NCBI GenBank assembly: GCA_021014325.1
Contig: CM037474.1
Coordinates: forward strand, 5,621,130 to 5,685,129
Length of the DNA stretch: 64,000 bases
Direction of reading: 5' to 3'
Source of the DNA: Plazaster borealis
Lineage: Eukaryota > Echinodermata > Asteroidea > Forcipulatida > Labidiasteridae
In this document: one piece after another, positions 2,412 through 57,449 of the stretch
How the letters are laid out: the number at the start of each line of letters is the position of its first letter
How positions within the stretch are numbered: the first letter of the stretch is position 1
Notes under the pieces: model-generated
The model's database searches: none
What the model saw: only the letters and a program-made list of their open reading frames with translations
Told to the model about the DNA's origin: nothing
Program-made: the position numbers and the translations under genes

Positions 2412-2705
2412 CTGATTGATCTTTAGGTAGAGTAACAATGACAGTCTTGGACGCAGACTTGTCGTACATCCCTTTATACTCAGCAGAGTCTAATCTCATA
2501 TGATGAGGCTTAGTGCTAGCTTTCTTTGCTAATCCCTTATCTGTTGTCGTGATCGCAATCAAGACGATCTCGTAAGACTGAGTTGATGTGCATTGGATCG
2601 TATACTGCTGGGTGTTAGGTTTCAGGGTTGCATAAACTGCTCCGTTGACCTCAAGTTTGTATGCGAGGAGGGTACGTCTAAGACATGTTGAGCAGACAGG
2701 ATCGT
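2412..2705 (-). CDS. Exon 42: FN3-10 remainder (last exon seen)
   Basis: Residues 2474-2572: DPVCSTCLRRTLLAYKLEVN, GAVYATLKPNTQQYTIQCTS and YEIVLIAITTTDKGLAKKAS. It ends GATCAATCAG before donor GTAAGGTC in mid-codon, so the transcript continues. I could not find the next exon in 1-2411. Acceptor ATCTTGCAG. Confidence 0.87.

Positions 2706-57449: not shown

Follow-up and report, generated by a model that had tools for sequence, protein, structure and literature searches.

Cupredoxins are known chiefly as electron carriers that use copper, and otherwise as secreted modules with receptor or clotting functions. Several cupredoxin folds occur per chain in ceruloplasmin and in factors V and VIII, which are secreted and have a compact domain arrangement. 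Large arrays of fibronectin type III (FN3) domains are found in titin and twitchin, intracellular giants of FN3 and immunoglobulin (Ig) domains in which the FN3 arrays serve as scaffold. A gene on the minus strand of a 64,000-nt stretch of the starfish Plazaster borealis (GCA_021014325.1, contig CM037474.1, positions 5,621,130-5,685,129 of the forward strand; the window) joins both kinds of module. The complete protein would comprise, in order, seven cupredoxin folds, a CHB_HEX_C-type sandwich, 16 FN3 domains around an alternatively spliced acidic spacer, and a thioredoxin fold. With a probability of about 0.5, it is a giant membrane-tethered intracellular binding scaffold of ~3,600 residues. 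What is new is the probable intracellular, lipid-anchored nature of the protein, the universal loss of type-1 copper sites combined with strict repeat order, and the thioredoxin end.

The gene had been recognized from the genomic letters (the original prediction) as 42 exons joined in consistent phase into ~2,571 codons and ending at position 2412. It was modeled again with an exon-chaining script and generic splice matrices followed by hand curation, at a stage when the predicted coordinates were known and homologues had not yet been seen. Automatic chaining yielded 46 and 48 exons; apparently repeat-derived or spurious exons were dropped by hand, and the start exon was chosen with the predicted coordinates in hand. 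The curated minus-strand chain, from 57449 to 2412, has 42 exons in one open frame without a stop. The exon number and phase therefore stand, while the length becomes 2,552 codons and the end at 2412 is not a gene boundary. Two additional exons (43 and 44) follow, giving 2,602 codons in the window with GT-AG at every intron, and the gene leaves the window at its low-coordinate edge.

A protein search with model residues 460-860 listed 23 proteins, headed by two uncharacterized isoforms from Asterias amurensis with 97% identity in that region: P0002 (3,635 residues, NCBI isoform X2) and P0001 (3,191 residues, X3). With P0002 as query, tblastn recovered exon 44 and every one of the 42 exons from the window, collinear and on the minus strand, with extra cross-matches from repeat to repeat. 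Exon 43 (24 residues) was found by chaining and missed by this search, yet its translation agrees with P0002. Over the aligned length 2334 of 2597 residues are identical (89.9%), and all gaps are small, the longest (15 residues) lying within the spacer. By segment, the cupredoxin part is 96.5% identical, the CHB domain 95.2%, the spacer 77.6% and the later FN3 domains 89.5%; residues 1-45 are 80% identical. Judged from these alignments, the agreement of the exon chain with P0002 is far beyond chance, and a single gene accounts for the whole chain. Beyond the window, P0002 continues for ~1,000 residues with six more FN3 domains (16 in total) and a TlpA-like thioredoxin C-terminus bearing WCxxS. 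The original observation is thus confirmed as correct and slightly incomplete.

Relatives were sought by word-sharing protein searches, in which 2,689, at least 7,981 and 6,791 candidates were scored. The family includes at least 28 proteins (P0001-P0021, P0024-P0030) from at least 25 species among the matches listed: starfish, sea urchins, crinoids, hemichordates, gastropods, bivalves, annelids, a nemertean and the hydrozoan Clytia. The expected orthologues in echinoderms and hemichordates were thus found, but none from amphioxus was seen among the matches listed. Nor did these matches include other chordate, arthropod, nematode or sponge members, an absence that is weak in word-based searches; the chordate and arthropod rows listed are titin- or twitchin-like FN3 proteins. 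All relatives are labeled as uncharacterized, hypothetical, unnamed, numbered or domain-based, apart from one "fibronectin, partial," and none has a functional label. Among the open-licence papers listed by literature searches, none concerned the protein or its relatives. The earlier impression of an unfamiliar protein, with a domain order not recognized from any named animal protein, holds insofar as no informative or functional name is attached to the family, but databases do hold it, as predicted relatives in at least 25 species.

The seven cupredoxin-like domains first proposed are borne out. Pfam recognizes the N-terminal part as a whole (Cupredoxin_1, 8.8e-13; Copper-bind, 8.7e-9), with no individual stretch passing alone. 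Hidden Markov models (HMMs) built from the family resolve seven repeats in the model, each at E ≤ 3e-20, values that are partly circular as the HMMs come from these same proteins. The AlphaFold2 model of the cupredoxin and CHB_HEX part is nearly all strand (predicted template modeling score, pTM, 0.76), and structure comparison finds the cupredoxin fold in the repeats, with plastocyanin and purple cupredoxin 5fc9 as the relative. Of the copper ligands, the first His persists in 26/26 proteins for repeats 3 and 7 and in 23/26 for repeat 5. Among 182 repeats, one has the type-1 ligand Cys, and among 194 none shows the pattern C-x(2-5)-H. At the level of sequence, these counts show the type-1 copper site to be gone from the cupredoxin repeats across the family.

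The order of the repeats has been kept. With HMMs from eight deuterostome proteins, each of the 42 repeats in six lophotrochozoan proteins gets its top score from the repeat of the same number. The Clytia protein is a tandem of two blocks. In each, six cupredoxin repeats are identified with confidence and the seventh is weak (0.2) or undetected; a CHB_HEX motif follows each block (Pfam PF13290; the two copies were identified by eye), and FN3 domains are lacking. Against all-bilaterian HMMs, 12 of its 14 positions, some with hand-set boundaries, score best with the same-numbered repeat; position 7 is ambiguous (<5 bits) and position 12 favors repeat 2. As repeat order is kept across phyla, the array is, on this comparison, older than the bilaterian radiation, and it probably also predates the cnidarian-bilaterian split.

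The location of the protein is suggested by its first residues. Of 27 bilaterian relatives, 20 begin with the motif MGxx[AV]S, two carry it internally and five lack it. M1, G2, A5, and S6 are nearly invariant and the linker behind them diverges. N-myristoylation signals begin with MGxxx[S/T/A], and we infer from the likeness that the N-terminus is N-myristoylated; the protein is therefore probably intracellular. Hydropathy profiles of five proteins revealed no signal-peptide-like hydrophobic start in any: in each, even the most hydrophobic of the first thirty 19-residue segments was negative. One of the five has a 19-residue segment at 1.75, inside the FN3 region.

Behind the cupredoxins lies one CHB_HEX_C domain, as predicted, with scores above the curated Pfam cut-offs (CHB_HEX_C_1, 28.5 bits vs. 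22; Fn3_assoc, 24.1 vs. 23). FN3 domains surround the acidic spacer, two before it and eight after it within the window. Downstream of the spacer Pfam fn3 scores 7e-43 in seven stretches, and ahead of it 0.0007 (20.2 bits, under the 25-bit cut-off), so that all three expected Pfam families (Cupredoxin, CHB_HEX_C and fn3) were found. The forecast of at least ten FN3 domains agrees with the ten counted in the window by family HMM, nine of them at E ≤ 5e-5, again a partly circular value. The tenth (residues 993-1068) is weak in starfish (0.04) and clear in Ptychodera, Aplysia, and Capitella (2e-13 to 3e-12). In isoform P0001 the acidic spacer is missing downstream of DSKSDS, where the window carries a GTAAGC donor. 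The spacer is probably optional through alternative splicing, given the skip in P0001 and the matching donor.

At the far end, Pfam Thioredoxin_8 was matched in 10/10 relatives tested (best 5.9e-7), although the A. amurensis protein reached 19.9 bits, below the cut-off of 27. PDB profile matches of this part are mainly thioredoxins, from 5.8e-5. Its AlphaFold2 model (mean predicted local distance difference test, pLDDT, 66.4; pTM 0.70) retrieves TlpA (4txv_A) in Foldseek at 2.3e-6. Taken as a prediction, the model shows the C-terminal part adopting a thioredoxin fold. The active site is not CxxC but, in most relatives, CxxS: the pattern L.W..[WF]C..S, in which Ser replaces the second active-site Cys, occurs in 22 of 27 bilaterian relatives, and Anneissia has WCLAA. 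In starfish, sea urchins, hemichordates, and crinoids the domain also contains clustered Cys and His residues (e.g., CCC...HCCCC), far fewer in molluscs and annelids, possibly a metal or redox site. Near the C-terminus, eight of the 27 relatives, from echinoderms, molluscs, and an annelid, carry the motif IS[VIL]..PYS.

For location and function, we infer the following arrangement from the architecture. Myristate and the adjoining basic linker would hold the N-terminal end at a membrane, and the copper-free cupredoxins and FN3 array would form rows of protein-binding surfaces and a long spacer. The thioredoxin-like domain at the far end, with one conserved active-site Cys, would dock on or trap a thiol partner, its WCxxS end working in place of the normal two-cysteine redox cycle. 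The beta-sandwich scaffold of the original prediction is a fair reading in terms of structure, supported by the strand-rich model of the cupredoxin and CHB_HEX part, and the scaffold role itself is reasonable. More tentatively, these proteins may form an unnamed animal family of giant scaffolds, tethered to membranes inside the cell, whose copper-less seven-cupredoxin array, its order fixed since before the cnidarian-bilaterian split, was re-used as a protein-binding rod, with a bilaterian FN3 extension, a CxxS tip for thiol docking or sensing, and perhaps loss in vertebrates and ecdysozoans.

Other readings are less well supported. The protein might be a structural component of cilia or sperm flagella linking membrane and axoneme, an unlikely reading that fits the species list loosely: all 25 species found have cells with cilia or flagella, and no family member from insects or nematodes is among the matches listed. 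Myristoyl anchors are compatible with ciliary membranes, and the Foldseek rows include beta-sandwich proteins of the ciliary central apparatus. However, those rows are generic beta-sandwich chains with TM-scores of about 0.1, and no vertebrate is among the matches listed either, despite the motile cilia of vertebrates; such absences are weak because the searches were word-based and only listed matches were seen. Rather less probable is a role in adhesion or matrix, with the protein secreted or exposed at the cell surface, as animal proteins with FN3 arrays or cupredoxin folds often are (ephrins and ceruloplasmin among the latter). In its favor are the extracellular location common among FN3-array and multi-cupredoxin proteins, the relative labeled as a fibronectin, and the Foldseek ranking, headed by factor VIII, factor V, and ceruloplasmin. 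Nevertheless, the conserved MGxx[AV]S start and the lack of a hydrophobic one argue against secretion, and the matches to factor VIII and ceruloplasmin have TM-scores of ~0.1 and root-mean-square deviations >30; similar domain chains are therefore common, the assembly not.

A copper or redox enzyme, in which a multicopper-oxidase-like array and the TlpA-like thioredoxin domain handle copper or thiols, is improbable. The cupredoxin fold and the His retained in repeats 3, 5, and 7 would suit it, as would the top fold match of the thioredoxin domain, a TlpA complexed with copper-protein partners, but the near-complete loss of the ligand Cys and of C-x(2-5)-H (evidence that covers type-1 sites, not the type-2 and type-3 sites of oxidases) and the Ser at the second thioredoxin active-site position oppose it. 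Finally, that neighboring genes or pseudogene fragments were artefactually joined is very improbable, for although the exon chain was built from genomic sequence, with some weak splice donors and exon fragments repeated in three tandem arrays, one A. amurensis protein covers all exons (database proteins may themselves be predictions) and the order is kept in other phyla.

Table 1. Exons and domains of the P. borealis gene, in window coordinates (residues refer to the model)
Feature	Coordinates	Strand	Evidence and remarks
Exon 1	57344..57449	-	Start codon, MGTGASK..., N-myristoylation-like motif, then basic linker; in phase with exon 2
Cupredoxin-like repeat 1, residues 46-139	exons 2-5: 56759-56847, 49595-49651, 46860-46978, 44743-44815	-	Family HMM 3e-20
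Cupredoxin-like repeat 2, residues 146-237	exons 6, 7, 5' part of 8: 43811-43959, 41839-41883, 40462-40645	-	Family HMM 2e-24
Cupredoxin-like repeat 3, residues 244-344	36500..40645: 3' part of exon 8, exon 9 (38289-38395), 5' part of exon 10 (36500-36657)	-	Family HMM 3e-28
Cupredoxin-like repeat 4, residues 351-454	34365..36657: 3' part of exon 10, exons 11-13 (35405-35487, 34785-34839, 34365-34522)	-	Family HMM 2e-25
Cupredoxin-like repeat 5, residues 463-550	exons 14-16: 33487-33603, 32540-32652, 31949-32000	-	
Cupredoxin-like repeat 6, residues 557-643	exon 17: 30774..31034	-	Family HMM 1e-20
Cupredoxin-like repeat 7, residues 664-757	exons 18-19: 29653-29769, 28935-29172	-	Family HMM 2e-24
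CHB_HEX_C_1 / Fn3_assoc domain	exons 20-21: 27878-28032, 26733-26839	-	Pfam PF13290 1.5e-6, PF13287 3.8e-5
Exon 22, acidic linker	25534..25645	-	tblastn: 94.7% identity to A. amurensis
FN3 domains 1-2	exons 23-27: 24555-24686, 24057-24209, 22546-22710, 21075-21183, 19837-19974	-	Family HMM 1e-13, 0.04
Acidic low-complexity spacer	exons 28-29: 18949-19081, 16567-17911	-	Internal donor, first intron base 17817
FN3 domains 3-10	exons 30-42: 14804-14976, 13605-13712, 12589-12869, 11712-11901, 10859-10982, 9841-10047, 8780-8951, 7314-7463, 6499-6603, 5793-5885, 4861-5034, 3458-4213, 2412-2705	-	Family HMM 5e-5 to 3e-20
Exon 43	1189..1261	-	Absent from the original prediction; translation GNIVQLGATFHPSVERRNEESEEN matches P0002; GT-AG; phase-consistent
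Exon 44 start, FN3 domain 11 start	1..78	-	Truncated by window edge; phase-consistent; tblastn P0002 2607-2632 at 80-3, 96%

Three of the exons in Table 1 are partly duplicated in tandem arrays, each copying an exon's 3' end and the adjoining 5' splice site: exon 8 at 40246-40551 (153 bp, 2.0 copies), exon 14 at 33147-33556 (108 bp, 3.8 copies, with the frame open across all four unit copies), and exon 35 at 9082-9938 (135 bp, 6.3 copies). All three unit lengths are divisible by three. Large minisatellites occupy intronic positions 39630-40274 (29 copies of a 22-bp unit) and 48340-49288 (105/205-bp units). Sequences resembling tRNAs lie in introns or flanks at 13989-14061, 20817-20889, 24353-24427, 29339-29414, 46641-46713, 59583-59671, and 59962-60035 (six called by ARAGORN and six by Rfam, five common to both), and some of them probably belong to repeats of the short interspersed nuclear element (SINE) kind. 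An intronic open reading frame at 22065-22514 on the minus strand (150 residues) resembles the end of a long interspersed nuclear element (LINE) reverse-transcriptase protein; a Pfam scan of it gave no match.

That a giant, probably cytosolic protein retains seven cupredoxins, none with a type-1 site, in one order from starfish to snails and worms points to strong selection for a role other than copper chemistry. Because members are known from common laboratory species (Strongylocentrotus, Lytechinus, Crassostrea, Capitella, and Clytia), location and partners are directly testable. If the absence from vertebrates is true, animal cell biology would have overlooked a large intracellular structure, as it centers on vertebrates and flies.

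The closest described proteins each share part of this architecture. The A. amurensis isoforms and orthologues such as S. purpuratus LOC577931 have the family, domain order, and exon-encoded segments in common with the window protein, which is not identical to that of A. amurensis, and their records assign no function. The Clytia hemisphaerica "GH29D-like beta-sandwich domain-containing protein" (P0030) has cupredoxin repeats in matching register followed by CHB_HEX_C, but its cupredoxin and CHB_HEX block is doubled, and it has neither FN3 domains nor an MGxxxS start. With plastocyanin and purple cupredoxin (5fc9), the fold and, in several repeats, the first ligand His are shared; here, however, the ligand Cys and next His are lost and a single large protein carries seven such domains in a row. 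Like it, ceruloplasmin and factors V and VIII have several cupredoxin folds per chain, but the global match is poor (TM-score of about 0.1 in Foldseek) and type-1 sites are absent here. TlpA and ResA proteins have the C-terminal fold, whereas here CxxS replaces CxxC in most relatives, within a giant protein. Titin and twitchin share the FN3 arrays, a titin FN3 domain being the top PDB sequence match of P0009 (1.1e-8), but in this family cupredoxin, CHB_HEX, and thioredoxin domains are added, and Pfam scans of P0002 and P0009 showed no kinase domain.
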